Assembly: GCA_937989665.1 (NCBI GenBank)
Contig: CALKRN010000004.1
Location: 62,001-126,000, forward strand
Source: an uncultured Desulfomicrobiaceae bacterium
GTDB taxonomy: Bacteria; Desulfobacterota; Desulfovibrionia; Desulfovibrionales; Desulfomicrobiaceae
DNA length: 64,000 nt
Reading direction: 5' to 3'
Shown here in pieces: positions 40,618 to 62,662 of this stretch. Each line of letters begins with the position of its first letter. Within the stretch, counting starts at the first letter, position 1. The notes under the pieces were generated by a model that had not been told where the DNA came from, made no database searches, and saw nothing but the letters and a program-made list of their open reading frames with translations. Position numbers and translations under genes: made by a program.

Positions 40618-40628
40618 AGGGAGGTGGC

Positions 40629-43600
40629 ATGGAGAACGTGTCCCGACTTGTCCGTCTGGGTGCAAGTGCCCTTGTGGTGCCGATGGCCGGGCTGGTGGCC
40701 CTTGCCATGGACCCGCCGCGGGTGATGGCCTTGCTGGGGCTTGCCCCCGATCTTGGCACAGTCATGGCCGTGGCGGCGGGAGGGGGCCTTTTGGTGGGGG
40801 GCCTCCTGGCCTGGCTCGTGGACGATCAAGTGGCCTCGGATCGCCTCTTGGCCAGCGCTGCCGTGTGGGCGGCGCTGGCGGCTGCCTGCCGTCCGGAGAT
40901 GCTGGTGTGGACTGCACCGCAGGGATGGCTTGATGTATTGCGCCTCTCGGGGGTGGCGGCCGGTGGCATTGCGCTTGTCCATGCCTGGACCTGCCTGGGT
41001 TATGCCCTCTGGCGCCAGGCCTTGCCCCCCTTGCGGGTCCCCGTGGCCATCCTCATGCTGGGTTTGGCCGGCAATCTCCTTTTTGTTCTTCAAAGTCCGG
41101 CCTTGCTTCAGCAAGTGGTCGCCCAGCTTGGGCTTCCCGCCTTGCCCTTCCGGCTTCCCGAATTGGCGAGCCGGGCACTTGTCCTTGTGGCCTTCAATCT
41201 TCTGGTAGCGGCGGCTCTGAACCTTTTGCGGGTGGGGCATATCCTGGGGCTTGGTCGCTTGTGGGGAGTGCTTGTGCTGGCTGCTGCCGCCGCAGGGTTC
41301 TCGCCGCTGTGGGCCGAACTGGGGGCGTCGGCCTGGGCTGCGGCCTTGCCCTTTCTTTTGCCGTCCATTGCTGCCGTGGTAGGCGTGGCCTTGGCCCAGG
41401 GCAGCCTCTGGGCAGAGGTCTTTCTCGTCACCGGGCTTATTATGGACGCCATGCGGGGGCGTCGGCCCACATGGTATTGGGGCTATCCTGCCTTTCGCGA
41501 TGGCCTGGGCCGCGGGGCGGCTTTTGGGACCCTCTTTTTGGGCTTGGTGTTCCTTGTTGATGCCGCGAGCCGTTCCGTCTGGCTTGCCATGGCCATGGAG
41601 ATGGTGCCCTCCCTCACCTGGGCAGCGCTGGCGGCCCTCACCATGCCCCTGGCGGCCACGGTGCTCGAGTCTTTTGACGGCAGCCGTCCGTTCCTCCACC
41701 GCCTAGCCGACAGCTACGCCCAGCCTACGCTTTTTTTCCGCGGGGCGGTACTCGGCTTGGCCCTGTCCGCCTTGCCACCAGTGGATATCATCCCCCTTCC
41801 TGCGGGGCAGCGTTTTCTTGTGGGTGCCTTGCTTGGGGTAGTGGCCTCTGCTGGGGCGTCGCTGGTGTGGGACCTTGGTGCCATCGCCTGCCGGCTGCGG
41901 TTGCACCTGCGCTCCTGGCGCCACTACGCCGTGGCTGGGGCCCTGGGGGCCTTTGTGGGCGGGGCCGTGGCCTGGTACGTAGACCCGAGCCAGGCTGGGG
42001 TGATCCTCGCCAAATTCCGCCAATACGCCACGGTGTTTGCCCAGGGAGGGGGCAACTACGTCATCTATCCCTTGTTTAGTAAATGGGGGTCCATGGACCT
42101 CGGGCCGCGGGGCGGGGGGGCGGTCCTCCTTTTCCAGGAGTCGGTGTCCGGGGTCATCAACTGGTCGCTGGCCGCGCCGCTTTTTAGCGTCAATCTCTTT
42201 CTCCTGAGTGCCTTGTTCGCCCGCTCCTGGGCCCCGCTACGCCTGCTGGCGAGCCGGGAGGGTCTTGTGCTTGTTGCCGAAGGCACGGTGCGGGTGCTGC
42301 GCTGGGGCCTGTGGATGGCACCGGTCATCTATTCCTTTTTGCGCATTGCCCCAGAGCCGACGTGGTACAACCAGGATGGCTTGGTGCGCACCCTCGTGGC
42401 CACGATCCAAACCTGGCGCCTGGACCCGGAGGCCTTCCGCCTTTGGAGTCGGGAGGTCTTTCTGGCCTTGCTGGCCTATGATTGGTTTCGCATTCTTATT
42501 TGGTTTGACCATATGGGGTTGCGGGTCGCTACCTTGGTTAACCTCTCGTTTGTGGGCGGCGACCGCCTGGATGAGGCCCTTGCCCGGTTTTTGGGGGCCC
42601 GCGTGCGCTCGCGCTGTATCCCCGAGGCGGTGCGGCGCTTTGCCACCTGGGCGCCGCTGCTCATCCCCTTTTATCTGCCCATGGGCGCAGACTGGGCTTA
42701 CGTGTGGGACGGCGCTGAGGCCATTGCCCGCACCGGTAGCGGCCAAGTACCGTTGCTCGTCCCCCTGCTGGGGGTCATGGTGCTGGGGGGGGTGCTCATG
42801 GCCCTCATGGCTCGGCCCCGGCCGGTGGCGGCCTGTGCCGCGGGCAGTACCCCTGAGGCCCGCTGCCTCGCCGAGGAGATTGTCGTGCATAATGGCGTCT
42901 ATGCCTCGGTGTTCGGCCTTGATGGTCGAGGCTTTGCGCGGGTCTTCCGCTCGGCCCGGCATGGGCATGAGATTGATCTTACCGCCCGCCCCTTGTCACG
43001 GGCTCATGACGTGGGCCGCATTGTCTACCTGCGGGAAGGGGACGAGCTGTGGAGCTTAGGGTGCCGCCCCACCCGCCATCCTGAGGCACGGCATTCGGTC
43101 CTGCGCCTTGATGACCTCTCGGTGCGTCAGACCTGTTCCTGCCGGGGGATCGAGGTGCGCATGGATGCCATCGTGGCCGAAGACGCCCCTGGGGAAGCCT
43201 GGATCGTCTATCTCACCAATGTCTCCAACCGTCGCGTAGCGCTCGAGATCACCTCGTATCGCGAGCTCACCCTCAATGACCCAAGCGCTCAAGCCCGGCA
43301 TCCGTTCTACAACCGCCAGCACATTACCACCTGGTGCACGGTGGAAGACGGGCCTTCCCCTCGCGCCGGGGCCGTCCTGGCCAAAAACCGCCAGCTCAAG
43401 GCCGGGGCTCCCCCTCGACCAACCTCCGAGACCTACGTCCATCTTGTGGCTGGCCTAGAGGACGAGTCCCGGCTCCTTGGCTATGACGATAGTCGGCTGC
43501 GGTTTCTGGGGTATGGGACCCTGCGTCGGCCCGACGGTCTGTGGCAGGAGCCACAACCTTTGGCAGATCGTGCCCTCCACGTCACGTTTGACCCCATCGC

Positions 43601-46142
43601 CAGTCTCCGCCTGGCCGTAGATTTAGCCCCTGGCGATACCACGGCCTTTGTCCTTGTGGAGGCCTATGGACCAACGCCAGAAGCAGCCATGGCTTTGGCG
43701 GCTCGCCTTGCAGGCATTGACCCTCTCCCGGCCCGGCCCCAGGGACAGGCCAAGGCGGTTCCTCTCGCAGAGCCTGATCTTGACTCCATGCTCTCCCTTA
43801 CCGCAGGCCCCTCTTTCACCTTTGCCGCCGATGGCCAAAGCCTGGAGGTCGCCGCTCGCACCCCGCGGCGTTTTGCCCATCTTCTTGTCAATCCCCTGGG
43901 CTATGGGGTGCTGGTGGGCAACGACGGGGCTCTGGCCTCCTTTTGGGACAACTCCCAGCAAAACGCCCTCACCCCCTATCCAGCTGACGCCACCAGCGTT
44001 CAAGAGCCTGGGCAAATGCTCTATCTCCGCGACCTCGATACCGGCGCTATGACCTCGCCAACCTTTGTCCCCTTCCGGGAAAAGGAGGCCCACTACGCGG
44101 TCCACTATGGCCTTGGTTGGTGTGCCTTCAGCAAAACACTGGCCGACCTCGAGATGGCTTGGCACATCATTGTCCCGCCCGAGCGGCCCATGGAGCTGCG
44201 CCTCGTGCGCATCGCCAACCACGGTTCGCAGGCTCGTCGTTTGGCCGTGACGTTCTATGCCCAAATCATCCTGGCGGAGATCCCGGAAGATAGCCGCGGT
44301 CAGGTGGAGGCCAGCGCTGATCCGCAAGCCGGGATACTTTTCTTTTCTCGTCCGGAGAACCGCTACTGCCAGGGGGTGGCCTACGTCGCCTGGAGCCTTG
44401 AAATGGCTGCCCATGCGACGGTCATGAGCCAGTTTTTGGGCGAGGGACGGGATTTGAGTGCACCGTATTTCGTGGAATTGGGCGCCCCGGACCTCCGCCA
44501 AGAGGACGATGGCTTGCGGGTGGCGGCCATGATGAGCCAGCTCGAGGTCCCTGCTGGTGGTGAGGTCGTTTTCTGGATCGCCCTAGGCCAAGAGCCCAGC
44601 GTGGCCGACTGCCGCCGGCGGGTGAAGGCCATCCTCGGGGTGACCGATGTGGAGGCGGAATTGTTCCGCACGCAGACCTGGTGGCAGCACCGCCTTTCGC
44701 GAGGGGTCCAGATCACCACCTCTGCCCCGGCCATTGACCGGCTGGTGAACATTTGGCTGCCGTACCAGATCCTCACGGCCCGGCTGTGGGGTCGGCTTGG
44801 GCCCCAACAGCGCAGCGGTGCCTACGGTTTCCGCGACCAGCTCCAGGACGTCCTGCCTTTGTGTTTCGGTATGCCGGGCTTGGCGCGGCGCCAGATTCTT
44901 CTTCATGCGGCCCAGCAATTCCATGCTGGGGATGTCCTCCAATGGTGGCACCCAGCGCCAGACAACAGCACTGGTTTTGGAATGCGCAACCGGGCCTCGG
45001 ACCCACATTTGTGGCTCCCTTACCTGACGGCGCAGTATGTCCAGGCCACGGGGGATGCGAGTATCTGGGACGAGCTTGTGCCCTTCCTCGAGGGGCGCAG
45101 CATCCCGCCCCGGGAGGAGGGGATTGCCTTTGCGCCACATCCCTCTCGCGACAAGGTCTCCCTCCTCGAGCATTGCCTGCGCGCTGTGGAGCGCACTTGG
45201 CAACGTCGGGGTCGCCATGGGCTCCCTCTCATCCTCGCCCATGATTGGAACGACGGGCTTTCCGCCGTGGGCGTACGCGGCAAAGGAGAGAGCGTCTGGC
45301 TCGGCTTCTTCCTTTACCTGGTGTTGCGCCAACTGGCCGAAGTCACGGCGACGCGCGGCATGGGGCGCTGCTCGCGTCGGCTTTTGCGCCGCGCCGAGGC
45401 CTTGGCGCGGGCCCTTCAATGGGCCTGGAGGGAAGACCATTTTCTGCGGGCCATTACCGATACTGGCGAGGTCCTCGACTACGCCGATGCCCTCACCGCG
45501 GCTTGGCCCATGCTCTCCGGGGCAGTCAGTTTTTCCCAAGCCCAGCAGGCCGTGCTGCGCGGCGTGGCGATGTTGGAGAAGCCTGCCCTTGTGCAGCTCC
45601 TTGATCCCCCGTTTACTGAGGCCTCGCAGCCCTATCCGGGGCGCATTGCCGACTATCCCCCTGGAGTGCGGGAAAATGGTGGTCAGTATTCTCATGGTTC
45701 GTCGTGGCTGGTGGATGCGACCTGTGAGCTGGCGCAAAAAGTCCTTGCCCAAGGGGATGTGCACGAGGCGGCCCGGCTGCGCGCCTTGGCCTTGCGGCTG
45801 TGGCTCAAGATCTCGCCCTTAGCCCATATCCTGCCGGAGAGCATGCCCGCCTACGGTCTTGCCCCGCACCAGCAGGCGGCGGACATCTCCTATGGACCTG
45901 GGTATGAGGGTCGTGGCGGGTGGAGCTGGTATACCGGAGCGGCCGCGCGTATGCTTTGGGCCATGTATGGCCTGTTGGGGTTGCGCCTTGAGCGGGGGCA
46001 GCCCAAGGTAGATGTCCGGTTTGGGCGTCTTAACCCTGAACTGCGCGTGGAGCGCCTGGAGGTAGGCGGGGTGACGGTATATGCCGCCCAAAAGGAAGAT
46101 GACGCCCCCGCCGGCGAAGCGAGCCCCCGGGGGCAGGAGTGA
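40629..46142 (+). CDS. Giant membrane protein with C-terminal GH94 phosphorylase-like domain
   Basis: 1837 residues; GGGAGGTGG precedes the ATG. Residues ~1-745 are very hydrophobic, with a dozen or more membrane segments broken by a few soluble loops; I recognise no known transporter or GT motif. Residues ~745-1837 resemble the beta-sandwich plus (alpha/alpha)6 barrel of GH94 (formerly GT36), as in cyclic beta-1,2-glucan synthase and cellobiose or oligoglucan phosphorylases. AYGFRDQLQDVL starts near 1398, the general-acid motif DWNDG is at 1539-1543, His1689 lies in GGQYSHG, and GRGGWSWYTG is at 1761-1770. The GT84 domain of cyclic glucan synthases is absent. Likely role: inner-membrane-anchored glucan phosphorolysis or chain-length control. 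Donor, linkage and direction of reaction are unknown. Confidence 0.8.
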   Translation: MENVSRLVRLGASALVVPMAGLVALAMDPPRVMALLGLAPDLGTVMAVAAGGGLLVGGLLAWLVDDQVASDRLLASAAVWAALAAACRPEMLVWTAPQGWLDVLRLSGVAAGGIALVHAWTCLGYALWRQALPPLRVPVAILMLGLAGNLLFVLQSPALLQQVVAQLGLPALPFRLPELASRALVLVAFNLLVAAALNLLRVGHILGLGRLWGVLVLAAAAAGFSPLWAELGASAWAAALPFLLPSIAAVVGVALAQGSLWAEVFLVTGLIMDAMRGRRPTWYWGYPAFRDGLGRGAAFGTLFLGLVFLVDAASRSVWLAMAMEMVPSLTWAALAALTMPLAATVLESFDGSRPFLHRLADSYAQPTLFFRGAVLGLALSALPPVDIIPLPAGQRFLVGALLGVVASAGASLVWDLGAIACRLRLHLRSWRHYAVAGALGAFVGGAVAWYVDPSQAGVILAKFRQYATVFAQGGGNYVIYPLFSKWGSMDLGPRGGGAVLLFQESVSGVINWSLAAPLFSVNLFLLSALFARSWAPLRLLASREGLVLVAEGTVRVLRWGLWMAPVIYSFLRIAPEPTWYNQDGLVRTLVATIQTWRLDPEAFRLWSREVFLALLAYDWFRILIWFDHMGLRVATLVNLSFVGGDRLDEALARFLGARVRSRCIPEAVRRFATWAPLLIPFYLPMGADWAYVWDGAEAIARTGSGQVPLLVPLLGVMVLGGVLMALMARPRPVAACAAGSTPEARCLAEEIVVHNGVYASVFGLDGRGFARVFRSARHGHEIDLTARPLSRAHDVGRIVYLREGDELWSLGCRPTRHPEARHSVLRLDDLSVRQTCSCRGIEVRMDAIVAEDAPGEAWIVYLTNVSNRRVALEITSYRELTLNDPSAQARHPFYNRQHITTWCTVEDGPSPRAGAVLAKNRQLKAGAPPRPTSETYVHLVAGLEDESRLLGYDDSRLRFLGYGTLRRPDGLWQEPQPLADRALHVTFDPIASLRLAVDLAPGDTTAFVLVEAYGPTPEAAMALAARLAGIDPLPARPQGQAKAVPLAEPDLDSMLSLTAGPSFTFAADGQSLEVAARTPRRFAHLLVNPLGYGVLVGNDGALASFWDNSQQNALTPYPADATSVQEPGQMLYLRDLDTGAMTSPTFVPFREKEAHYAVHYGLGWCAFSKTLADLEMAWHIIVPPERPMELRLVRIANHGSQARRLAVTFYAQIILAEIPEDSRGQVEASADPQAGILFFSRPENRYCQGVAYVAWSLEMAAHATVMSQFLGEGRDLSAPYFVELGAPDLRQEDDGLRVAAMMSQLEVPAGGEVVFWIALGQEPSVADCRRRVKAILGVTDVEAELFRTQTWWQHRLSRGVQITTSAPAIDRLVNIWLPYQILTARLWGRLGPQQRSGAYGFRDQLQDVLPLCFGMPGLARRQILLHAAQQFHAGDVLQWWHPAPDNSTGFGMRNRASDPHLWLPYLTAQYVQATGDASIWDELVPFLEGRSIPPREEGIAFAPHPSRDKVSLLEHCLRAVERTWQRRGRHGLPLILAHDWNDGLSAVGVRGKGESVWLGFFLYLVLRQLAEVTATRGMGRCSRRLLRRAEALARALQWAWREDHFLRAITDTGEVLDYADALTAAWPMLSGAVSFSQAQQAVLRGVAMLEKPALVQLLDPPFTEASQPYPGRIADYPPGVRENGGQYSHGSSWLVDATCELAQKVLAQGDVHEAARLRALALRLWLKISPLAHILPESMPAYGLAPHQQAADISYGPGYEGRGGWSWYTGAAARMLWAMYGLLGLRLERGQPKVDVRFGRLNPELRVERLEVGGVTVYAAQKEDDAPAGEASPRGQE

Positions 46143-46146
46143 GCGC

Positions 46147-47116
46147 ATGCGGGTGTGGGTGTTTGTGCCGCCATTGCCGCGGATAAGCGGGGGTCTACGG
46201 GTGCTTCTGCAGCTGGCAGAGCAGCTGCAGGGTCTTGACGCCTTGGCGGCGGTCCTAGTGTGGGAAACCCCTCCCCTTGCCATGGATCTGCCGTGGAGTC
46301 CCGTGCGCCGCGCCGACTTGGCCCAGGGCGATGTCCTGCTTTTACCCGAAGGTTGGCCCAATGCCCTTGCCTTTGGGCTGCGGGCTGGGTGCCGGGTCGT
46401 CGTCTATTGCCAGAATTGGGCCTATCTCTTTCATGGCCTTGCCCCTGGGGTGCGCTGGCGGGATCTCCCTGTCTCGTTTCTTGCCGTCTCCCATCCCGTG
46501 GCCTGGTATGCAGAGCAGGTGTTGGGTGTCGGGCCGTCCATCGTGCGGCCGGTGGTGGATCGGAGCCTGTTTGTGCCCTCTTGCCTCCCGGAAGAGGGCC
46601 GGTTGCGGGTTGCCTTTATGCCGCGCAAAAACAAGGCCCTAGCCGAGACCGCCCAGCGCATCCTCGCCGAGCGTGCCCTCTCCGTGCCGCTGGAGTGGGT
46701 GCCGATCCATGGCTTGCCGCCAGCAGGAGTGGCCGAGGTCTTGGCCTCGTGTGCCATCTTTGCTGCCACCGGGTTCCCCGAAGGCTGCCCTTTGCCCCCC
46801 CCTGGAGGCCATGGCTTGCGGCTGCCTGCCTGTGGGCTGCACGGGCTTTGGTGCTTGGGACTATGCCTGCCAGTTGGACTCCGATGGATATACGCCGTTT
46901 GGCTACCAGCCCCGGCCTCGGCCGTGGGGCGGCAATGGGCTGTGGGTACCCGATGGAGACCCCTTGGCGTTGGCAAGGGCCATAGAGCGTGCGGCAGCCT
47001 TGTGGGCAGATCCTGCGGCACGCCGTGCGGTTTGCGAAGCTGGCCAGGCGACGGTGGCGGCCTATGACGCTGCCCACCAACGGCAGGAGATTTGCGCATG
47101 GCTTGCCCGTCTCTAG
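46147..47116 (+). pseudogene. GT4-like glycosyltransferase, frameshifted in a poly-C tract
   Basis: The gene starts at 46147 (CAGGAG upstream) with MRVWVFVPPLPRISGGLRVL, an N-terminal GT-B domain. Reading is normal to PEGCPLPP, where an 8-C run (46795-46802) shifts the frame. With one C fewer the protein continues LEAMACGCLPVGC...DYACQLDSDGY to a stop at 47116, giving 322 residues of a complete GT4-like protein with the E-x7-E-like region. As written, frame 0 runs into unrelated sequence and stops at 47067. It could be a sequencing error, phase variation, or true inactivation. It overlaps the next gene by 19 bases, as its intact neighbours do, which argues that the full product is normally made. 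Confidence 0.8.
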
Positions 47117-47880
47117 CCTGGCCAGCGGATTTCCGTCACCACCTTCTTGTGGTCGTGCTCCATTATGGCGATCCAGAGCGTACGGCCCGGTTGGTGGCCC
47201 AGATGGCGGAAGGGACAGCGCCGGCAGTGGTGCGGGTTCTCGATAATGCTGCGCCTCGGCCATTTCCGCAGCCATGGGTTCGGCTCGCGCAGAACCTCTA
47301 TTGGGGTGGGGCCTTGGCCTGGGCCGTGGAACGGGCTCGGGAGGAGGGTTACTCGCACCTGTGGTTTCTCAACGACGACTTGACGTGGTTGACCCCGCGG
47401 CCGGTTGTGGCTGCGTGGCAGCGGCTGGGAGTCATCACCGCGAATCTTGGTCCGGTGGGGGTGTATAGCCCTGCAGTCATCGCCCACCCCTACCACCCGC
47501 AGATGGTGGTCCGTCGTGGCGGAAATTTTCGGGTCGTGCGCTTTTGCGATGGGGTAGCGCCGCTGTTGTCCCTTGAGTTTGTGGCGGCTACGGGTCTTAG
47601 CTGGGAGGAGAATCCCCTTGGGTATGGGGTGGATGTCGTCCTTTCGAGCCAGGCAGAGGAACTTGGTTGGAAGGTGGTGGTGGATCATCGGCTGGTGGTC
47701 CGGCATACGTTTCATGGCTCGGCCCGGAGGGAGCCTGGGTTTTTGGCCTGGGCAGCCCGTCTCGAAGAGGCCTTTCTCTCCCAGCATCTCGGCCCGGAAT
47801 ACCGCACGGTGATGCAGCGTTGGTCCCAAGAGGTGCAGGAGTACGGAGGAGAAGGGTCAGGCCCAACGGGATGCGAGTAA
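47098..47880 (+). CDS. GT2-family glycosyltransferase
   Basis: 260 residues from the ATG at 47098 (CAGGAG upstream). GT-A fold features: LLVVVLHYGDPERTARLV at the N-terminus, a variable nucleotide-binding region, WFLNDDLTW with the metal-binding Asp pair D93-D94, and a C-terminal GYGVDVVLSSQAEELGWKV segment like the acceptor/base region. It resembles rhamnosyl- or galactofuranosyl-type GT2 enzymes, but the sugar is not determined. It lies between the frameshifted GT4 and a longer GT2 in the glycan part of the run. Confidence 0.78.
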   Translation: MACPSLAWPADFRHHLLVVVLHYGDPERTARLVAQMAEGTAPAVVRVLDNAAPRPFPQPWVRLAQNLYWGGALAWAVERAREEGYSHLWFLNDDLTWLTPRPVVAAWQRLGVITANLGPVGVYSPAVIAHPYHPQMVVRRGGNFRVVRFCDGVAPLLSLEFVAATGLSWEENPLGYGVDVVLSSQAEELGWKVVVDHRLVVRHTFHGSARREPGFLAWAARLEEAFLSQHLGPEYRTVMQRWSQEVQEYGGEGSGPTGCE

Positions 47881-47898: not shown

Positions 47899-49533
47899 AT
47901 GGCGGATCTGCGCAAGTTGTGGCCACAGATGCCGCGGTCGATCCAACGCGGCTTGCTTCAGGGCAGTGTGGGGCCGTTTCATCTGGCCGCATTGGCGGTG
48001 GAAGCCTTTGAGGCAGGCAAAGGGGCTGCGCCGCTTATCTCCCTGGGGGGAGAGTTTTTGCTCGCCGCCTGGGGGGGCGGGAGTTTTCTTGACGGCGCCC
48101 TCGCTGCGCAGGTGGCGGCATTGGCTGCGCAGGGGTTTGGCCTCGCGCCGCAGCTGGTGGACTTGGCCCGGGCTGCAGCAACGGCATGGCAGCCACCGGC
48201 CAAGGCCCCGCTTTTGCAGCGCCTGCTTGAGCGCCGGGAAATGGACCGCCTCGAGGAGCTGCTGCGCCGCCACCTCCAGGAAGAGCCAGGTAACCTTTTT
48301 TGGGTGCGCCAGGCCGTTTGCCTCGGCCTTGCGGAGGGCCGCTTTGGTTTGGTGGAGGCGGGGCAAGCGGCCCTCTCCCCGGAGTTGGCACCGGTGGCCC
48401 AAGCCGTGCAGCTGGAGTTGGCTACTGTCCAGGGCGATGGAGAGGCGATACTCCATCTGGCGCCAGAAGTGCCTGGTGTCACGGCGCGTTTCCTCGAGGC
48501 CATGGCCGCCACCCAGGTTCATGGCCTCGAGACGGCTCGAGAGGTGTGGAAAAAGCTTTTGACCCAAGCCCCGTGGCACACCCAAGCGGTGTTGGTGCTT
48601 CATGACCTCGTCGCTGGCCTTCAGGAGGCGCGCGCCATTCCACCAGAGCCAGGAGTGGTGGCCCTCTATACCCTTGATAAACCCGAAGATTTGGATCGGA
48701 CCCTGGCCAGCTTGGCTGCCTCTCGCCTCCATGGTGCCGGCATCTGGGTGCTCGATAACGGCTGCGCCCCTGCAGCGAAGGCGGTCATGGCCCGCTGGCA
48801 GGAGCAGCTTGGCGACACGATGCGCACGATGGTCCTGCCGGTGAACATCGGTGCCCCGGCAGCACGCAATTGGATTCGAGCGGAGTTTTTGCAGCACCAG
48901 CTCCCTTGGCTCGTGTACGTGGATGATGATGTTGAACTCCCACCGGATTGGTTGGAGCGTCTCGAGGTAGCCCGCCAATGCGCCCCTCAGGCTGGGGTGT
49001 GGGGATGCCGCGTGGTCGATGCCCGCACACCCTGGGTGCTGCAGAGCGTGGACCTCCATTTTATGCCCCCCCGGGAGAAGGGACGGCGCTTTACGGTGAG
49101 TGATCTCCACCATCAAGTCTTTGATGGGGGGGCGTTTACTTATCTGCGACCCTGTGCCTCAGTAACGGGCTGTCTCCATCTTTTGGATAATCGGGCTGTC
49201 GCTGCAGAAGGGGAATTTGATATCCGGTTTTCTCCTTCGCAGTATGACGATCTTGACCGGGATGTGCGCATGCTCCAGGGGGGGCGCCTTGCCATCTACC
49301 AGGGGCATCTCGCAGTACGGCATTTCAAGCGCACTGGAGGCGCTGCGGCCATGACTCCAGCAAGCTGGAGCAACGCCATGGCTAATCTTGAGAAACTCCA
49401 TAAAAAATACCCTCAAGAAGAGTGGGAACGTCTGATGGAATGGGAAACCCAGGCCCTGGAGGAGGACTTTTGGCGCAAATCGGCGCGGGTCCGGGCGTGG
49501 CTGGGAAAGGAGAAGGACGATGGAACACATTGA
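47899..49533 (+). CDS. GT2-type glycosyltransferase with long helical N-terminal extension
   Basis: 544 residues. Residues ~1-240 are Ala/Leu-rich and helical, TPR-like in feel (LLERREMDRLEELLRRHLQEEPGN), with no catalytic motif. The GT-A domain starts near 250 (VVALYTLDKPEDLDRTLASL), has PVNIGAPAARNW and metal-binding D342-D344 in YVDDDVELP, and ends with FDIRFSPSQYDDLDRD. A close paralogue is encoded at 52371-53987 on the other strand. The extension could mediate protein contacts in a glycan assembly complex. Sugar specificity is unknown. It overlaps the UGM gene by 14 bases. Confidence 0.78.
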   Translation: MADLRKLWPQMPRSIQRGLLQGSVGPFHLAALAVEAFEAGKGAAPLISLGGEFLLAAWGGGSFLDGALAAQVAALAAQGFGLAPQLVDLARAAATAWQPPAKAPLLQRLLERREMDRLEELLRRHLQEEPGNLFWVRQAVCLGLAEGRFGLVEAGQAALSPELAPVAQAVQLELATVQGDGEAILHLAPEVPGVTARFLEAMAATQVHGLETAREVWKKLLTQAPWHTQAVLVLHDLVAGLQEARAIPPEPGVVALYTLDKPEDLDRTLASLAASRLHGAGIWVLDNGCAPAAKAVMARWQEQLGDTMRTMVLPVNIGAPAARNWIRAEFLQHQLPWLVYVDDDVELPPDWLERLEVARQCAPQAGVWGCRVVDARTPWVLQSVDLHFMPPREKGRRFTVSDLHHQVFDGGAFTYLRPCASVTGCLHLLDNRAVAAEGEFDIRFSPSQYDDLDRDVRMLQGGRLAIYQGHLAVRHFKRTGGAAAMTPASWSNAMANLEKLHKKYPQEEWERLMEWETQALEEDFWRKSARVRAWLGKEKDDGTH

Positions 49534-50872
49534 GTACGTGATCATTGGCGCCGGGCCCACAGGCCTGGGGGCTGGCCTGCGGCTGCAGGAGCTGAACGTA
49601 AGGAGTTTTGTCCTTCTTGAGCAGCACGCCTATGCTGGGGGGCTCTCGGCGAGTTTTGAGGATCGCGCGGGCTTTACTTGGGATATTGGCGGCCATGTGG
49701 TCTTCTCCCGCCTCGAGTCTTTTCTTCGGCTTTTCGATGCGCTGGTGGGCGACGACGCCCTCACCCACCAGCGTTTGGCCCAGGTGCGTCTTGCCGATCG
49801 CTGGGTCCCGTATCCATTCCAAAACAACATTCGCCATCTCCCCAAAGAGCTGCTGTGGGAGTGTCTTGAGGGGCTGCTTGCACCGCGGCCAGAGCCAACG
49901 GCAGCAGCCCATTTTGGGCAGTGGATGGAGGCCGTCTTTGGGGCGGGGATCACGCGGCTCTTCATGCGGCCCTACAATTTCAAGGTGTGGGCGACACCCC
50001 CCGAGGCCATGGATTTTCGTTGGATTGGCGAGCGCGTGGCGGTGGTGGACCTTGTGGAGGTCCTGCGGCGCATCATCCTTGAAGAAGATGCCACAGACTG
50101 GGGACCCAATGCCGTCTTTCGTTTTCCCAAGCACGGCGGCACTGGAAGTGTCTTTCGCCGCATGGCCAGCCGTATTGAAGACCATATCCGCTACTGCTGC
50201 CCGGTGCTGCAGGTGGATTGGAAGCAGCGCATTATCACTTGTGATGCTGGCCAGCGCTTTTCCTATGGGCAATTGTTGTCCACCATGCCGCTAGATCGCC
50301 TTGTCTGCGAGGTGCTGACCCCGCCGGAAGCGGCGCTGGTGGAGGCAGCCACAAGGCTCGAGCACAACGGGGTGCACGTCTCTGGCGTTGGCGTGGCAGG
50401 CCTGCGTCCGGACCCCACCTGCTGGATGTATTTCCCTGAGGCGAGTTGTCCCTTTTATCGGGTCACAAACTTTCACAACTATTCCCCCTTCAATGTCGCC
50501 CAGCCTGGGGAGCAGATGGCCTTGATGAGCGAAATTTCGTTTTCGCGCCATAAGCCAGAACCTCAGGCCGATTTGGCGCGTCGCGTCGAAGAGGGCCTGC
50601 AGACCGTCGGTCTGCTGCAGGAGGGCGATGCCATCGTCACCCATTGGGAGCATAGGGTGGAGTATGGCTATCCTGTGCCTACCCGCGGGCGGGATGCGGC
50701 CTTGGCAGTTATCCAACCATGGCTTGAGGCTCGAGGGATTTTTTCCCGGGGACGGTTTGGGGGCTGGAAGTATGAGGTCGCCAATATGGACCACAGTGTT
50801 GTTCAGGGTATGGAGTGGGCGGAGCGGATGGTGCTCGGTGCGCCAGAGCGGGTGTACCAGGTGGGGGGCTAG
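49520..50872 (+). CDS. glf: UDP-galactopyranose mutase, eukaryotic type
   Basis: 450 residues. N-terminal FAD-binding IIGAGPTGLGAGLRLQE, an acidic residue at the second strand, then WDIGGHVVFS with His59. Further motifs: VPYPFQNNI, FMRPYNFKVWA with Arg150, WGPNAVFRFP-GGTG, CWMYFPEASCPFYR with Arg314, EYGYPVPT and GRFGGWKYEVANMDHS. From memory these line up block by block with fungal/trypanosomatid UGM (Arg182 and Arg327 of the Aspergillus enzyme), far better than with bacterial Glf. It would interconvert UDP-galactopyranose and UDP-galactofuranose using reduced FAD, feeding the neighbouring glycosyltransferases. A more generic amine-oxidase-like flavoprotein cannot be excluded. AAGGAGAAGG precedes the start. 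Confidence 0.78.
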   Translation: MEHIEYVIIGAGPTGLGAGLRLQELNVRSFVLLEQHAYAGGLSASFEDRAGFTWDIGGHVVFSRLESFLRLFDALVGDDALTHQRLAQVRLADRWVPYPFQNNIRHLPKELLWECLEGLLAPRPEPTAAAHFGQWMEAVFGAGITRLFMRPYNFKVWATPPEAMDFRWIGERVAVVDLVEVLRRIILEEDATDWGPNAVFRFPKHGGTGSVFRRMASRIEDHIRYCCPVLQVDWKQRIITCDAGQRFSYGQLLSTMPLDRLVCEVLTPPEAALVEAATRLEHNGVHVSGVGVAGLRPDPTCWMYFPEASCPFYRVTNFHNYSPFNVAQPGEQMALMSEISFSRHKPEPQADLARRVEEGLQTVGLLQEGDAIVTHWEHRVEYGYPVPTRGRDAALAVIQPWLEARGIFSRGRFGGWKYEVANMDHSVVQGMEWAERMVLGAPERVYQVGG

Positions 50873-51032: not shown

Positions 51033-52259
51033 TTATTGGGCGTTGGTCTGGGCCCAGAGGGCGTACAGCTGGGCGAGGGATAGATCTCCTTGGGCTGTGA
51101 GCTGGGCGCTGAGGTGCTGGGCATAGGCAATGAGTTCGGGGAGGCGGGAGGCCGCCAGGCGTTCTTGCTCCAGGAGTCGGCCGGCGTGCCGGGCGAGGGC
51201 CGTATCCCCGGCGCGGGTGGCGGCTTTGGCCAGGGCTAGAAAGTGCTGTTCTTTTGGGAAGAATTGGGCGGCTAAAAGCCGCAGGGCCGCGGCCTCGGTC
51301 CAGGCATTGCGTCCCTCTAGCCAAGAAGCCAGACGGTCATAACCTGGCTCCCAGAGGGGCTCTTGGATGATGGCGTCCAGCAGCAGCCTGGGGTCGCTGA
51401 TGTGCCTGGAGCGCTCTAGCAGTTTGTTCTGGCTGGAGGCAGGAAGGAGCATGATGGGATGCAGGCTTGCCGAAAGGCCCATGATGTAGCCTTCGGCCTC
51501 GAGGTGGCGGTGGAAATCGGGGCGGATGCGGCCCATCCAGCGGGCGGCAAAGCGTTGGGCATTGGCGGTTTCCGCAGCGAAGCGGCCTGGTGTTTGGCTC
51601 GTGAGGTGAATCAGCGTGCTGCGAGGTTCACAAACAATGCTGCGGCCGGCATCGCGAGCGCGCAGGCAGAGGTCCACGTCTTCGAGCCCATTGTGGAATC
51701 CTTCGTCAAAGCCGTGGAGGTCCTCGAATAGCCTCCGTGGCAGGGCCAAGGCCGCGCCTGTAACGGCCTGCACCTCTCGGCGGCGTTGGGCGGCGGGGTG
51801 GGTGGCGGGGAATTGTTCAAAGACGTGGCAAACCTTGGGGCCAGGGGTGAAGGCGACGCCCACGTGCTGCACGCGCTCGGCCCCAGGGTAGAGGAGCCGA
51901 CTGCCGACAATCCCGCCAGTGGTGTTGAGCTGCTCCAGGAGGGGTTGGGCCCAACCTGGCAGGGCGATGGTGTCGTTGTTGAGGAAAAAAAGAAAAGTTC
52001 CCTGGGCTTGGTGGGCTCCCTGGTTGCAGGCAGGGGCAAAGCCAAGGTTGGTTTCGTTGCGTATGACCCGAAAAGCAGAACCAAAGAGGGTTTGGCCGAG
52101 GGGGGCGAGTTCCTGGGGCGTAGCGTCGGGGGAACCGTTGTCCACGACAATGATTTCCGTGGGAACGGGGGCGCGGTGTTCAGCAAGGCTGGTGAGGCAT
52201 TGGCGGGTGAGCGGCCATTGGCCATACACCGGGATGATGATGCTCAGTAACGGCGGCAT
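51033..52259 (-). CDS. GT2-family glycosyltransferase (rhamnosyltransferase-like)
   Basis: 408 residues. The GT-A domain begins LLSIIIPVYGQWPLTRQCL, with EIIVVDNGSPD, NLGFAPACNQG, FFLNNDTIALP (metal region near 93-96) and LEDVDLCLRARDAG. The C-terminal ~150 residues are helical and TPR-like. It resembles O-antigen rhamnosyltransferases of the WcaA/GT2 group, though the sugar is not certain. GGAGGAG lies just upstream of the ATG at 52259. It is the promoter-distal end of the minus-strand glycan cluster and is convergent with glf, with a 160-base gap that holds nothing I recognise. Confidence 0.82.
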   Translation of the reverse strand: MPPLLSIIIPVYGQWPLTRQCLTSLAEHRAPVPTEIIVVDNGSPDATPQELAPLGQTLFGSAFRVIRNETNLGFAPACNQGAHQAQGTFLFFLNNDTIALPGWAQPLLEQLNTTGGIVGSRLLYPGAERVQHVGVAFTPGPKVCHVFEQFPATHPAAQRRREVQAVTGAALALPRRLFEDLHGFDEGFHNGLEDVDLCLRARDAGRSIVCEPRSTLIHLTSQTPGRFAAETANAQRFAARWMGRIRPDFHRHLEAEGYIMGLSASLHPIMLLPASSQNKLLERSRHISDPRLLLDAIIQEPLWEPGYDRLASWLEGRNAWTEAAALRLLAAQFFPKEQHFLALAKAATRAGDTALARHAGRLLEQERLAASRLPELIAYAQHLSAQLTAQGDLSLAQLYALWAQTNAQ

Positions 52260-52370: not shown

Positions 52371-53987
52371 TTAGGGAGATTGTTGGTGCGCCGTGGCGTG
52401 GAGGGGCAGCTGTTCCTGCCGCTGCCTCCTCCAAAAGGACTGGGCTGAGGGGGCAAGGAGGGGAAGGGCCCTCTCTAGGGCCTTGTCCCACCACGCGGCC
52501 TCTGCGGCGTGAACCGCGTGGTGGATGTCCCGCAGCTCCCTCTCGGTGAATTTGCCTTCCATCTTGTGGTGGTTGCCCATCACATGGGCCCAGGAGGCCT
52601 CACTTTTGGGGGCCGCGCTGCCGGCATCTTGGAGATGGGTAATGGCCACGCGGCCATCATAGAGTACAAAGCCACCGTGCTTCCAGATCTGGATGTCCCG
52701 TTCCAGGTCATCCACCTGCGACGGGGTAAAGCGCACGTCAAAATCCGGGACACCCAACCGTTCCAGCCGGCGCCGGTGGAAGAGGTGGCAGCAGCCCATG
52801 ACCGAGAGGCAGGGGCGCAGGACATCGTATTGCCCGAGGTCAAGGGCGAGGGGGGCATTGGGGGTAAAGCGGATGTGGTGGTGCGCTACCTCCTGGAAGT
52901 AGCGGTAGATGTATTGGATGGTATGGAAAGGATTGGGATTGACGACCTTGCCACCCACGGCACAGGTTTGGGGATAGATGAGGAGATCGGCGAGAAAGCG
53001 GCGCAACCAGTGGCGGGGAAGGAGGACATCGTCGTCGAGATAGGCGACGAATTCGGCCTCCTGGACCTCGGGCAGGTGCCAGAGCCAGTTGCGTGCCGCT
53101 GGGGCGCCGATGTTCACGGGGAGGTGAACCACCTGGATGGGGCGGCCGGCGGCAAGGCGGGCGACGCTGGCGTCGAGGTCTTTGGGGGCAAAGGCCGTGG
53201 ATCCGTTGTTGAGGAGGGTGATGGCGGCATCGCCAATGTCCGAGGCAAGGAGGCTCTCCAGCGTGCGCAGGGTGGTTTCGAGTTTGTTGAAGGTATAGAA
53301 AAGGATATGCACCCGATACTGATTGGGGTCAGGAAGGGGCAGTCTGTCTGCCATGAGGGCGAGGGCTTCGATGAGGTGCGGTTGGGCTGGCTCCAGGACC
53401 AGACTTTCCTGGAAGTGGCGGCAGGCGCGCGCATCATCTCCGGCCGCAAGGGCGAGATGGCCGAGCAGGTTCTCGCGCCAGATGGATGGTGGAACGCGGT
53501 GGAGGAGGGAGTCGCGGAGCGTGGTTTCTCCGAGGGCATGGGCCGCCCAGGCGAGCAAGGCTCGGGCAGGGGTGCTTTCTTCTTCGGTGCTCCAGCGTAA
53601 GGTTTCTTGGAGAAAGACCTGCTGGTGCTGCCCGCTGGCCCACAGGCCAAGGAGAAGACGGAGGCGGGCAGCGGCTGGCAGGGAGGCCGGCGGGAGGGCA
53701 AGGAGTTCTTGAGGGTCGCGGCCTTCGAGGAGGGCATCCACTGCTGCCCGGCGCAGAGCTTGGGGCATGGGCAGGGGAGGAAGGTGGAGGGTTTGTCCCA
53801 ATTGGTTGGCAAGGGCTACGAGCTCTGGGTCCCAGGGCTCCAGGGCGCAGGCGTGGCGGAGGCAGGCATGGGCCAGTTCTCGGGATGCAGGGGAGGGGGT
53901 AGCGCCTTGGAGGAGGGTTTGGGCCGCCCACATGGCAGGGGCGGTCTCGAGGTAGCCACGAAAACGGAGGAAGAACAGGATGTTCAT
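52371..53987 (-). CDS. GT2-type glycosyltransferase with helical N-terminal extension (paralogue)
   Basis: 538 residues. An N-terminal ~225-residue helical, Ala/Leu-rich region (RELAHACLRHACALEP...), then a GT-A domain from about 230 (VHILFYTFNKLETTLRTLESL). Motifs include PVNIGAPAARNW, D318-D320 in YLDDDVLLP, LSVMGCCHL and FDVRFTPSQVDDLERD. These are shared with the protein at 47899-49533, so the two are paralogues on opposite strands flanking glf and the rhamnosyltransferase-like gene. The start overlaps the upstream stop by 4 bases (ATGA). No signal peptide, so presumed cytoplasmic. Confidence 0.8.
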   Translation of the reverse strand: MNILFFLRFRGYLETAPAMWAAQTLLQGATPSPASRELAHACLRHACALEPWDPELVALANQLGQTLHLPPLPMPQALRRAAVDALLEGRDPQELLALPPASLPAAARLRLLLGLWASGQHQQVFLQETLRWSTEEESTPARALLAWAAHALGETTLRDSLLHRVPPSIWRENLLGHLALAAGDDARACRHFQESLVLEPAQPHLIEALALMADRLPLPDPNQYRVHILFYTFNKLETTLRTLESLLASDIGDAAITLLNNGSTAFAPKDLDASVARLAAGRPIQVVHLPVNIGAPAARNWLWHLPEVQEAEFVAYLDDDVLLPRHWLRRFLADLLIYPQTCAVGGKVVNPNPFHTIQYIYRYFQEVAHHHIRFTPNAPLALDLGQYDVLRPCLSVMGCCHLFHRRRLERLGVPDFDVRFTPSQVDDLERDIQIWKHGGFVLYDGRVAITHLQDAGSAAPKSEASWAHVMGNHHKMEGKFTERELRDIHHAVHAAEAAWWDKALERALPLLAPSAQSFWRRQRQEQLPLHATAHQQSP

Positions 53988-56266
53988 AGCTGGCTGAGAG
54001 AACGTACTTTTTGGCTAAAGTGAAGGTTTGCCCGAGAGATTTCCTCTGGGATCGCCATGGGCGATTGTGGTTTTCCTCTTTCGATTATCTCCACAAAAAG
54101 AGGGAGGACGTTTTCCCACGTAAAGCATTGCTGCCAGAGTTGTTTGCCGATGGCCCCCAGGGCCTGCCGCAGCGCTGGCTGGGAGAGTAGCGTTGCCACC
54201 ACCGAGGGGAACTGCGGCAAGGGGCAGATAATCCCGCCTGCGTCTTCATGGACGCTGTTGCATTGAGGGGTGGCTATCCAGGGGGTCCCGTGGTGCATCG
54301 CCTGGAGGATAACGAGGGGTCGGCACTCTGCCTTGGAGGGAAGGAGCAGCAGGTCTGCTTCGGCAATGGCGGCATCAGCTTCTTCTGGTGGAAGAGGACC
54401 AAGGAGGTGGATGCGGGGGTCTTGGGCTGCCGCGGCCACTACGGCGTCATAGTACTGTTTTTCTTGCGGCCAAGGAAGGGCAGCACCAATGAGGGCAAGT
54501 TGCCATTGTCCAGGGCTAGACTGCATCGTTGTCACTAACGCGAGTTGGTTTTTGACTGGCCAGAAGTTTCCCACATGGACAAGGAGGGGCAGGTCTGTCT
54601 TGAGTCCATGCCGTTTGCGAAAACCGGGCTGAGGGGGGAAGGGTGTTATGGCATGGGGGATAAAGAAGGGTTCGACCCCGACGGTGCGAAGATACGAGGC
54701 GTCCAGCCCTGATTGGGTAAGACTAATGCATCCGTGGGCGCGTTGGAGCACCGCCGCTACCAAACCATGGTGGTTGAGACTGTTCCAGTCATTCACGAGT
54801 TCTGGATTGATGATGGGGATGAGATGGATAGGGAATGGAGGGGTACTTGTTAACAGAGGGGCATGGAGCCAGCTGTCTGGCTGGCCGATGATGATTGCAG
54901 CTTTATATTGGGAATAGAGCAGGAAATTTTGGTATCTTTCGTATTCAGGTCCAAAAGCATTATCTCGAAATCTTCCTGTGCAATCAAATTGAATAATATG
55001 TATTCCTTCATAGAAAAATTGATCTCTTGATTCGAGCTTTCGAGTAACGACATGGACTTCATATCCATATAAGGAAAGTTGCTTTCCAAGATCTGCAAGA
55101 AAGTTTTCACATCCTCCGAAAGATGGCCAGAAAAAGTCACTTCCGAGAAGAATACGTTTGGACTCGGAGAGATGTACACTAGGAGGAGGAACCATTGGCG
55201 GCGGATAATGGACTTGGGAGTGGAGCTGTTTTTCGCGTTTGGCCAGTGCTGCCTGGTTGTTGGGGAGATGGGGGAGCAATCGAGTGAGGATGGTGCCAAT
55301 TTGGTCAAGTCGCTGGTCTTTGAGAAAAGATAACCAGTGGACATGGAGGAGGGCTTTGTTGGCATAGTAGTCAGCTATTTCATCTATTTCATTTGTTCTT
55401 TTTTGAGTTATCTTTTTAGCGAATTCACGGATAGATTGGCTACAAAGATCGATGAGCTCATTTGGTTTTTCTGTTTGCAGAGACATGAGCCGATGTACTG
55501 TGACGAGGCATCCTGCAGCATGTGCGATCCATGATCGATAGTCTTTTTGTATGAAATCATTTTGTTTTATTTGATCAAATATTCTAAGATGTAGTATAGA
55601 GTCATGACGCAGTTGATTTGCCTTTTTAGAAGACATGCTTTCTGCATGTCTTCTATAGACTACTTGAGTCATAGTATTAGTAGAAAAGCGCATTCCAGAA
55701 ATAAGGCATCGAAACCAAAAATCATAATCTTCGCATGCACGCAGCTGCGTATCGAATAGCATTTCGTGGAATGCTTGGTGGCGCCGGACGAGAAAGGCAT
55801 GGGAAGGGGCGATGTTGAAATGGCAGAAATGGGGGGCGATCGGCTTTCGAACGAGCGGCCAGGAACCAATCGGCACCAATGGCCCATCGGCGGTCATGGA
55901 GAGGGCTTCGATATTTTGGCAGACGACAATATCAACTTCAGGATGATTATCTAAAAACTGTACTTGGGAACTTATAGTATGAGGAAAGAGGAGATCATCT
56001 GCATCAAGAAATAAGATGTATTTACCACAGGAATTTTGAAGCCCTGTATTGCGTGCTGCAGATAGCCCAGCATTATCTTGGTAAATATATATTATGTTTT
56101 CAAATTTTGAGACAACCTCTTTTGTATTGTCAGTCGATCCATCATCAACGACAATAATCTCTTTTTCACCAGTAAAATCACTTGTAATTATACTGTTGAT
56201 GCAATGATAAAGGTAAGTTCCATAATTAAAGCATGGTATGATGATGGAGATTTGTGGATTTTTCAT
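53984..56266 (-). CDS. Bifunctional glycosyltransferase, GT2 + GT4
   Basis: 760 residues. The N-terminal GT2 domain has ISIIIPCFNYGTYL, VVDDGSTDNT, GLSAARNTG, FLDADDLLFP (88-91) and CEDYDFWFRC. A helical linker spans about 230-370. A GT4 GT-B domain starts ILLGSDFFWPSFGGCENFL near 373 and ends with LLLPSKAECRPLVILQAM, the E-x7-E-type donor site. One protein could therefore add two different sugars in sequence. The start at 56266 is coupled to the upstream stop (ATGA); an 18-residue extension is possible but overlaps. The 5' half is A+T-richer than most of the window. Confidence 0.85.
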   Translation of the reverse strand: MKNPQISIIIPCFNYGTYLYHCINSIITSDFTGEKEIIVVDDGSTDNTKEVVSKFENIIYIYQDNAGLSAARNTGLQNSCGKYILFLDADDLLFPHTISSQVQFLDNHPEVDIVVCQNIEALSMTADGPLVPIGSWPLVRKPIAPHFCHFNIAPSHAFLVRRHQAFHEMLFDTQLRACEDYDFWFRCLISGMRFSTNTMTQVVYRRHAESMSSKKANQLRHDSILHLRIFDQIKQNDFIQKDYRSWIAHAAGCLVTVHRLMSLQTEKPNELIDLCSQSIREFAKKITQKRTNEIDEIADYYANKALLHVHWLSFLKDQRLDQIGTILTRLLPHLPNNQAALAKREKQLHSQVHYPPPMVPPPSVHLSESKRILLGSDFFWPSFGGCENFLADLGKQLSLYGYEVHVVTRKLESRDQFFYEGIHIIQFDCTGRFRDNAFGPEYERYQNFLLYSQYKAAIIIGQPDSWLHAPLLTSTPPFPIHLIPIINPELVNDWNSLNHHGLVAAVLQRAHGCISLTQSGLDASYLRTVGVEPFFIPHAITPFPPQPGFRKRHGLKTDLPLLVHVGNFWPVKNQLALVTTMQSSPGQWQLALIGAALPWPQEKQYYDAVVAAAAQDPRIHLLGPLPPEEADAAIAEADLLLLPSKAECRPLVILQAMHHGTPWIATPQCNSVHEDAGGIICPLPQFPSVVATLLSQPALRQALGAIGKQLWQQCFTWENVLPLFVEIIERGKPQSPMAIPEEISRANLHFSQKVRSLSQL

Positions 56267-58128
56267 AATGGAGGAAGTTGCTCGAAGATCTCTCGAAGGA
56301 GTGGGTTGCGGTGAAGGCATTCTTCTTTTGTTTGTTTGGCCGCCTGCCGACGGTTGAGTTTTCTATTGAGCAGGAAAAGCCGAAGATGCGGTTGCCATTG
56401 GGCATAAGGCACGAGTCCTGCGGCCCGAGTATAATCTGCAATCGCTTCTGGGAGGCGGCCAGCCGCTTCATGGACGAGGCCTCGCCAGAAATACGGCATG
56501 CTGAGATGGGGGAGGCAGGTAATGATGCGTTCTATGCGTTCCACCGTGTCTGAGTGCATGGCCGCTATTGTGGCGTGGTCGGCAAGAAGGATGTGGAGGG
56601 GGTAGACGGTTGGGTGGAGGGTGTGGAGACAGGCCACGACTTCGGCCCAATGCGCCCTCATTCCTGTGGACGTAGAGCTGTGGCTGTGGATGCGATAATG
56701 AAAGAATGGTTTCTCGAAACGGTAAGACTTGATGCCAAACGGGGCGCAGCTAATCCAGAAGTTCCAATCTTCTGCCCCCCAAGGGAGGCTGGGGTCGTAT
56801 CCTCCTGCCATTTCCCACAGTTTTCGTGGATAAAGAGAGGCATAGGGAAATGTATTGTGAACGCAGAGCTCATTCCATGAATAGGGTGAGGGAATCCATG
56901 TGTTATTTCGAGCTCCAAACTCTTGAACATTGGAGAAAAGGAGATTGATCTCGGGATGGGCTGTGATGACCTGTACCGCATGGTGGAGAAACTCCGGAAC
57001 AAAGCAGTCATCACAATCAAGGGGGAGGATCCACTCTCCATTGGCCTGTTGGATGCCGATGTTGCGGGCATCAGCAGGGCCGACATTGTTTTTGTCAATG
57101 ACCCGAATGGGTACTGTATCATATTTGGCGGCAAGGGAGTGGGCCACTAATAAAGAATTATCCGTGCTTCCATCGTTGACGATGATGATCTCGAGAAAGG
57201 TATACTGTTGGGCAACGAGACTGCCCACGGCTTGAGGTAAGAAGGCTGCTCCGTTGTATACTGGAATAATGGCACTGATACGTGGTGGTTCTGGAGCTAG
57301 ACTAACTGAAATGGATTCTTGGCGCAGCAAGAGCGGCGCATCAAAGTGGACGGCATTGGGGGTCATGGTGTGGTATTGCTTCACATCGAGCCGTTGTCCT
57401 TGGTCAAACCAATCGGCCAATTGTTCAGCATCAACGGATTGTTCCGCAACGCGGTTGGCAAAGACGTGCTGGACGCGGTTGAGGGGATAGCAAAATCCAA
57501 CAGACTCTGGAAAGATAAGCCGCCACGGCAAATGGGAGATATGGGAAGTTTGTTGGCTTAGGGCCGCTTCCAAGCGGTTGGGGTGGTCGAAGGGAAGCTG
57601 GGAAATGAGTTCTAAGATTGTGGCAGTGCGGTACAGAGAGCCAGAAATCTCCAGTGGATAGCCAAAGTCATAGCTGGCGTCCTGCCAGCGAAATTTGACG
57701 AAGGGGGTGTTGGGGACGGGTTCAAGAGGCGGGATGGGTTGCGCCGCGTTCTGGGGATAGCAGTACGTCGTATTGGCCCCTAACAGGAAATTGACGGAGA
57801 GTGCATCGGGGTGCTCTGAGAGGGCCGCGATACAGGGGTGGATGGCAAATGGACGGTAAAAAAGGGCATCGTCTACGAGAAAAAAGATCCAGGGATATTG
57901 AGGAATAAGGGCAAGCAGTTGTTGGCGGAAGTGTGTCTCTGCAATTAGATGGATGTGAGGAAATTTTAGAGATACTTGTTTGTATTGTAAGACATGCTTC
58001 GGTGTTGTTGCCTTATAGAATACGTTAATATGAAGATCGTTGGCGTCATTTATCCAATGGTAAATGGACTCGATTAATGCATAAAGTTGAAGCGCTCTGT
58101 TTTTACTAAATATGATTGTCTGAATCAT
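56263..58128 (-). CDS. Two-domain glycosyltransferase: unknown N-terminal GT-like domain + GT2
   Basis: 621 residues from the ATG at 58128. The N-terminal ~270 residues start IQTIIFSKNRALQLYALIESI and contain FFLVDDALFYRP, like a divergent GT-A domain acting on one substrate. The second domain from about 282 is a standard GT2 (ISAIIPVYNGAAFLPQAV, IVNDGSTDNS, DCDDCF, WGAEDWNFW). The C-terminus has a TPR-like unit (RGLVHEAAGRLPEAIADYTRAA). An in-frame start at 58218 has AGGAGG only two bases away and would overlap the upstream gene by 65 bases; I prefer 58128 with a weak ribosome site. Sugar specificities are unknown. Confidence 0.78.
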   Translation of the reverse strand: MIQTIIFSKNRALQLYALIESIYHWINDANDLHINVFYKATTPKHVLQYKQVSLKFPHIHLIAETHFRQQLLALIPQYPWIFFLVDDALFYRPFAIHPCIAALSEHPDALSVNFLLGANTTYCYPQNAAQPIPPLEPVPNTPFVKFRWQDASYDFGYPLEISGSLYRTATILELISQLPFDHPNRLEAALSQQTSHISHLPWRLIFPESVGFCYPLNRVQHVFANRVAEQSVDAEQLADWFDQGQRLDVKQYHTMTPNAVHFDAPLLLRQESISVSLAPEPPRISAIIPVYNGAAFLPQAVGSLVAQQYTFLEIIIVNDGSTDNSLLVAHSLAAKYDTVPIRVIDKNNVGPADARNIGIQQANGEWILPLDCDDCFVPEFLHHAVQVITAHPEINLLFSNVQEFGARNNTWIPSPYSWNELCVHNTFPYASLYPRKLWEMAGGYDPSLPWGAEDWNFWISCAPFGIKSYRFEKPFFHYRIHSHSSTSTGMRAHWAEVVACLHTLHPTVYPLHILLADHATIAAMHSDTVERIERIITCLPHLSMPYFWRGLVHEAAGRLPEAIADYTRAAGLVPYAQWQPHLRLFLLNRKLNRRQAAKQTKEECLHRNPLLREIFEQLPPL

Positions 58129-58153
58129 GTTCGATCTCGATTCTGATGAAAAA

Positions 58154-60568: not shown

Positions 60569-60582
60569 ACCAAGGGACTCCT

Positions 60583-62499: not shown

Positions 62500-62662
62500 G
62501 CAGACTCCTTATGAATACTATTCAGTGGTGGAGGGCATGGTATTTCGGGATATGCACAATCCGGGCCAGGGATATTGGCATGCTGCTTCCAGGAGGAGGG
62601 ATTTTTGTCTTAGAGATTATGGGCCCTGCGGGACCATTAATCATGGTCTATTTTCTTTGCTT

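Follow-up and report, generated by a model that had tools for sequence, protein, structure and literature searches.

The window (the whole 64,000-nucleotide stretch of DNA analysed, part of a 2.13 Mb, 85.7% complete assembly of a bacterium from the sulfate-reducer group) contains on its forward strand, at 49520-50872, an uninterrupted open reading frame that starts with an ATG at 49520, has its stop at 50872, and encodes a 450-aa protein, which we assign with high confidence to the eukaryotic class of UDP-galactopyranose mutases (UGMs) on the basis of a phmmer search of the PDB, a table of aligned residues, an AlphaFold2 model, and Foldseek comparisons. A good ribosome-binding sequence, AAAGGAG, lies about 8 nt 5' of the start codon; a promoter and terminator scan at the locus returned nothing informative. 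The start of the gene is overlapped by 14 nt by a forward-strand gene for a family-2 glycosyltransferase with an N-terminal extension (47899-49533; Pfam Glycos_transf_2 at residues 259-406), a homologue of which lies directly upstream of the UGM gene in loci L001, L002, L107, L108, and L114, and whose product is a candidate user of UDP-galactofuranose (UDP-Galf). Upstream on the same strand, 47092-47880 encodes a protein that is without a Pfam match, has the appearance of a family-2 glycosyltransferase, and is conserved with the UGM gene, its homologues adjoining or lying near that gene in L001, L002, L108, and L116. Homology to relatives identifies 46081-47067 (+) as a likely group-1 glycosyltransferase gene that shifts frame near its C-terminal third; the reading frame continues in the open reading frame at 46673-47116, which carries a PLEAMACGCLPVG-type motif, the homologue in L002 matches residues 21-240 only, and that in L107 343 aa. 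The split gene at 46081-47116 reflects either an assembly error or decay. Just upstream of the glycan cluster, 40572-46142 (+) encodes a protein of 1856 aa with GH94 supersandwich and catalytic domains that resembles cyclic beta-1,2-glucan synthases.

The 13 kb that follow the UGM gene hold, on the other strand, four glycosyltransferase genes, two genes with methyltransferase domains, one of which is fused to a further glycosyltransferase, and one nucleotide-sugar epimerase gene, all recognised with Pfam. The convergent neighbour of the UGM gene is a family-2 glycosyltransferase gene (51033-52259) conserved in L001, L002, and L107, and it is followed by a second of that family whose sequence is related to that of the 47899-49533 product (52371-53987), a two-domain glycosyltransferase of family 2 and group 1 (53984-56320), another family-2 glycosyltransferase (56263-58218), a methyltransferase-domain protein of the glycan cluster (58154-60676), the group-1 glycosyltransferase and methyltransferase fusion (60583-62499), and a nucleotide-sugar-type short-chain epimerase or dehydratase (62663-63580; Pfam Epimerase). 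The best PDB match of this last protein is 3ehe, annotated as a UDP-glucose 4-epimerase (E = 5e-26), and its score falls under the galE cut-off. Two reverse-strand segments, 53984-58218 and 60583-63580, have a GC content of 46-54% and a GC3 of 40-53% where the window as a whole has 61% GC and neighbouring genes 59-67%, which are signs of recent exchange of the distal part of the cluster.

The glycosyltransferase surroundings that the first-pass annotation had described are thus real by Pfam and by conserved neighbourhood. The order transferase, UGM, convergent transferase is kept in a same-genus genome assembled as a single contig and in other members of the window's family, and outside that family a glycosyltransferase gene is the immediate neighbour of the UGM gene in at least 11 of 20 loci scanned, in Bacteroidota, Verrucomicrobiota, Acidobacteriota, Lentisphaerota, Desulfobulbus, and others. 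The exception is family f2 and its close kin (Desulfovibrionaceae), where the UGM gene adjoins an M24 peptidase gene instead of a glycan cluster. PDB searches with two of the neighbouring transferases gave no tie to known galactofuranose (Galf) transferases.

Searched against all PDB chains with phmmer, the window protein matched 14 eukaryotic UGM chains at E-values from 6e-106 (Aspergillus fumigatus) to 2.7e-103 (Trypanosoma cruzi), and the first match beyond the eukaryotic UGMs stood at E = 0.03; E. coli Glf was not among the matches up to E = 1. The alignment with A. fumigatus UGM shows 43.2% identity in 437 columns, and that with T. cruzi UGM 44.3% in 422. The sequence blocks quoted in the first-pass annotation are present in the open reading frame and, with E-values of this order, are no product of chance; its placement of the protein in the eukaryotic branch agrees with the sequence and the structure searches, both of which put eukaryotic UGMs ahead of generic amine oxidases. 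The distance from bacterial Glf that it had noted also held: the Glf domain PF03275 matches neither the protein nor anything else in the assembly (85.7% complete), while classical Glf (E. coli 1i8t, K. pneumoniae, M. tuberculosis) catalyses the same reaction and has the same general three-domain layout according to the literature. PMC3624792 puts the identity between the prokaryotic and eukaryotic UGM classes at 14-18%.

Residues were mapped on a 75-row alignment, with the A. fumigatus contacts taken mostly from Table 3 of PMC3624792 and the T. cruzi catalytic residues from PMC4192007. All 16 decisive residues of the UDP-galactopyranose (UDP-Galp) and FAD sites are identical between the window protein and the A. 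fumigatus and T. cruzi enzymes, namely (window numbering, with A. fumigatus equivalents in brackets) His59 (His63), Arg85, Tyr98, Phe100, Gln101 (Gln107), Phe148, Asn153, Trp157, Arg172 (Arg182), Asn197 (Asn207), Tyr304 (Tyr317), Arg314 (Arg327), Tyr384 (Tyr419), Arg412, Tyr418 (Tyr453), and Asn422 (Asn457). By site, identity to A. fumigatus extends over the uracil site (Tyr98, Phe100, Gln101, Phe148), the diphosphate site (Arg172, Tyr304, Arg314, Tyr384, Tyr418), the sugar site (Arg172, Asn197, Asn422), and the flavin site (His59, Arg412, Ser426), and the retention of FAD- and UDP-Galp-contacting residues that the first-pass annotation led one to expect is borne out by the residue table. Of the two catalytic arginines that the first-pass annotation had named, Arg314 does correspond to A. 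fumigatus Arg327, but Arg150 is not the counterpart of Arg182: it aligns with A. fumigatus Arg160 in FMRPYNF, a position unconserved among relatives (consensus FMxPYNF), and the true equivalent is the mobile-flap residue Arg172 in the motif W-I-G-E-R. Near the N-terminus lies the FAD Rossmann motif GAGPTG. A histidine loop with two glycines and a second ('200s') flap are described as unique to eukaryotic UGMs in PMC3624792, and the window protein has both, as Gly57-Gly58-His59 and as Asp193-Trp194-Gly-Pro-Asn197.

Departures from the A. fumigatus active site include Gly456, replaced by Ala421, and Gln458, replaced by Met423. Methionine at the Gln458 position is shared by the window protein and its kin and, according to PMC3624792, by bacterial Glf; the glutamine of the eukaryotes is common to 20 bacterial rows, including those near the eukaryotes in the tree and Bacteroidota. 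PMC7662398 names Ile65, Phe66, His68, Arg91, Ser93, Tyr104, and Tyr317 as NAD(P)H contacts, and also Asn57, which found no place on the alignment. At the seven aligned positions, Phe62, Arg85, Tyr98, and Tyr304 are kept, and Val61, Arg64 (His68), and Ala87 (Ser93) are changes. Arginine at the His68 position recurs in the close kin L001, L002, L003, and L107 and in one far row. Given the changes at His68 and Ser93, the sequence suggests that the means of keeping the window enzyme reduced may differ from that of A. fumigatus UGM.

An AlphaFold2 model built from 42 sequences (the window protein's own and relatives) had a pLDDT of 93.1 and a pTM of 0.91. Foldseek ranks 1-34 against the PDB were all A. 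fumigatus or T. cruzi UGMs, with TM-scores of 0.89-0.93 by query length; the top matches reached 0.92-0.93 at E ~1e-50, so that the overlay on Aspergillus UGM called for earlier yields a matching fold, and the next fold family was protoporphyrinogen oxidase (E = 6e-24). Among the closest known systems, T. cruzi UGM (PDB 4dsg, 4dsh) matches the window protein in fold (TM-score 0.93 by query length), in approximate length, in every decisive residue for substrate and FAD, and in the two-glycine histidine loop. It differs in that identity is 44%, in its Gln434 where the window protein has Met423, at the same two NADPH contacts (His68 and Ser93 in A. fumigatus numbering), and in that the window protein comes from a bacterium. 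A. fumigatus UGM (PDB 3uka, 3ukh, 3uth) likewise shares the fold and the active site, and its mobile flaps 179-187 and 203-209 align with the window protein, with conserved Arg172 and Asn197. The A. fumigatus enzyme, however, is a 510-aa tetramer and the T. cruzi enzyme a monomer, as stated in PMC3624792; at 450 aa, the window protein would seem to be without the extra length of the tetrameric enzyme, and it therefore probably does not form the same tetramer and is likely a monomer.

A single scan of genome contigs recovered 52 loci with homologues of the window UGM, spread over Thermodesulfobacteriota, Bacteroidota, Acidobacteriota, Myxococcota, Gemmatimonadota, Verrucomicrobiota, Kiritimatiellota, Lentisphaerota, Sumerlaeota, and Auribacterota. 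No relative turned up in one scan of viral contigs, and phage records gave three weak matches only (23-26% identity). Among 150 Desulfovibrionales genomes, 67 have a strong eukaryotic-type match (E < 1e-90) and 13 a strong classical Glf, with both types in six genomes of a single genus; the eukaryotic-type protein is therefore usually the sole UGM candidate in this order, and the six genomes with both imply that the two types may not be complete substitutes for each other. In the double-carrying genus (g223; L109 and L110) the eukaryotic-type gene stands beside an M24 peptidase gene and retains the full active site in both of the two copies checked.

The window's genome encodes GalE (441 bits, above the cut-off, in a 336-aa open frame) and GalU (337 bits), and together with the UGM these cover the route from UDP-Glc through UDP-Galp to UDP-Galf. 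Under the mechanism that we propose, UDP-Galp would be supplied by GalU and GalE, whose genes lie in other parts of the genome, and N5 of the reduced FAD would attack its anomeric carbon with departure of UDP; the resulting flavin-sugar iminium would allow the pyranose ring to open and to close as a furanose, and re-attachment of UDP would release UDP-Galf. Its users would be glycosyltransferases encoded in the adjoining cluster, with the product of the overlapping gene the likeliest. Conversion of UDP-Galp to UDP-Galf is the best reading of the predicted reaction. Homology, fold, active-site identity, neighbourhood, the presence of galU and galE, and the absence of Glf from the assembly are what the analysis shows, and from them we infer catalysis, the identity of the substrate, and use of UDP-Galf by the neighbouring transferase, which would place Galf in the surface polymer of this bacterium. 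Taken as a whole, the interpretation that the locus encodes a eukaryotic-class UGM making UDP-Galf for its adjoining glycosyltransferases, that many bacteria have enzymes of this class, and that the sampled eukaryotic UGMs most likely descend from a bacterial one, is in our judgement very probably correct. What weighs against it are the six genomes that have a classical Glf as well, the M24 peptidase neighbour in family f2 and its close kin, the changed NADPH-contacting positions, and the replacements of Gly456 and Gln458.

One rival reading takes the protein for a plain member of the amine-oxidase superfamily, a generic FAD-dependent oxidoreductase or desaturase, for which it can be said that the only Pfam domains above cut-off are Amino_oxidase and NAD_binding_8, that no NCBIfam model exceeds its cut-off, with PRK07208-type models far below theirs, and that plasmid relatives carry the NCBI product name 'FAD-dependent oxidoreductase'. 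That label is explained by the resolution of Pfam, which stops at the superfamily, and by the want of an NCBIfam model above cut-off. In the sequence search amine oxidases reach no better than 0.03, compared with 6e-106 for UGM, and in the structure search ~1e-20, compared with 1e-50; the UGM-specific mobile-flap arginine and the second flap are intact as well, and with sequence and structure searches both favouring UGM we rejected this very improbable reading. The superfamily neighbours themselves are instructive: PRK07208-type proteins and a bacterial clade at 30% identity (Pantoea, Methylomagnum, and others) belong to the same superfamily, and that clade shares site residues Arg85, Gln101, Arg314, and Tyr418, but most of its members are without equivalents of Arg182, where they mostly have Ser or Phe, and of Trp204, which is lost, so that these positions separate UGM-like proteins from their neighbours. 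Less remote, and still unlikely, is a mutase with the same mechanism acting mainly on another nucleotide sugar (UDP-GalNAc, UDP-arabinopyranose, or a 6-deoxy sugar) for a specialised glycan. Shifts in sugar specificity can occur among mutases of the bacterial class, some genomes keep both the eukaryotic-type gene and a classical Glf, and one gene of the window cluster encodes an epimerase whose specificity is uncertain; yet the sugar-site residues Arg172, Asn197, Asn422, and His59 are identical to those of A. fumigatus, in the double-carrying genus too, and the genome has galE and galU.

The 43-44% identity to eukaryotic enzymes, set against the 14-18% between classes in PMC3624792, could also be taken to mean that this bacterium recently acquired the gene from a fungus or protist, or that the assembly is contaminated with eukaryotic DNA. 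However, same-genus genomes carry the gene at 75% identity, one of them a single contig with the same gene order, and the GC and GC3 of the UGM gene match those of its neighbours. In a careful tree of 63 rows, in which the eukaryotes are represented by A. fumigatus (chain residues 352-360 entered as X) and T. cruzi only, these two group together (support 99/96) within a clade of 12 rows (100/97) that also contains Verrucomicrobiota/Kiritimatiellota, Acidobacteriota, Sumerlaeota, and Myxococcota rows, and the window protein falls in a separate 24-row clade (99/94), mostly of Thermodesulfobacteriota; with T. cruzi as sole eukaryote the placement is the same (11 rows, 100/98). Constraining the eukaryotes to group with the Desulfovibrionales clade cost 75.3 log units and was rejected (AU p = 4e-5), and on this test, the same-genus copies with their gene order, and the matching base composition we rejected recent eukaryote-to-bacterium transfer, which we regard as extremely improbable. 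Constraining all bacteria to form one group without the eukaryotes cost 16.9 log units, at a moderate AU p of 0.026. The distribution of Gln458 is consistent with the placement of the eukaryotic pair away from the window clade, and T. cruzi UGM has up to 53.6% identity to a bacterial protein (L027), compared with 50.0% to its A. fumigatus counterpart. The eukaryotic UGMs are most simply read as bacterial in origin, provisionally given two eukaryotic tips and a midrange p-value, and the bearing on eukaryotic UGM origin foreseen in the first-pass annotation thus lies in a eukaryotic pair that branches within a bacterial family, apart from the window sequence. We consider it somewhat more probable than the contrary that eukaryotes acquired UGM from bacteria near the Verrucomicrobiota, Acidobacteriota, Sumerlaeota, and Myxococcota homologues, and that the 'eukaryotic' class is in truth another large UGM class of bacteria, one that provides the sole UGM candidate in most Desulfovibrionales that have any and would mark unrecognised galactofuranose glycans there.

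The reviews searched divide UGMs into 'prokaryotic' and 'eukaryotic' classes, and the searched portions of this literature (PMC3624792, PMC7662398, PMC7278926) make no mention of bacterial members of the eukaryotic class, an earlier remark being possible. The window UGM bears more on the annotation and history of the eukaryotic enzyme than on its mechanism. If the family is active, bacterial Galf biosynthesis has been under-counted, because its members go under the name 'FAD-dependent oxidoreductase' and escape the Glf profile. The bacterial family also opens the origin of eukaryotic UGM, which is a drug target in both trypanosomatids and moulds, to a test by tree, and compounds directed against eukaryotic-class enzymes might likewise affect bacteria that possess one.

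Plasmids carry related genes as well. Streptomyces plasmids have a UGM homologue at 40-42% identity, and on that of Streptomyces cellulosae (L074) the eukaryotic-type homologue at 2765-4186 lies in a cluster with genes for a DUF6415 natural-product protein, a NUDIX protein, and a phosphotransferase, possibly reflecting a furanose in a natural product. On plasmids of Pantoea (L075:3691-7401) and Methylomagnum (L076:4906-7530), a group-1 glycosyltransferase domain is followed within one fused protein by a distant UGM-like domain (~31%), and in Methylomagnum galT and galK lie downstream of the fused gene.
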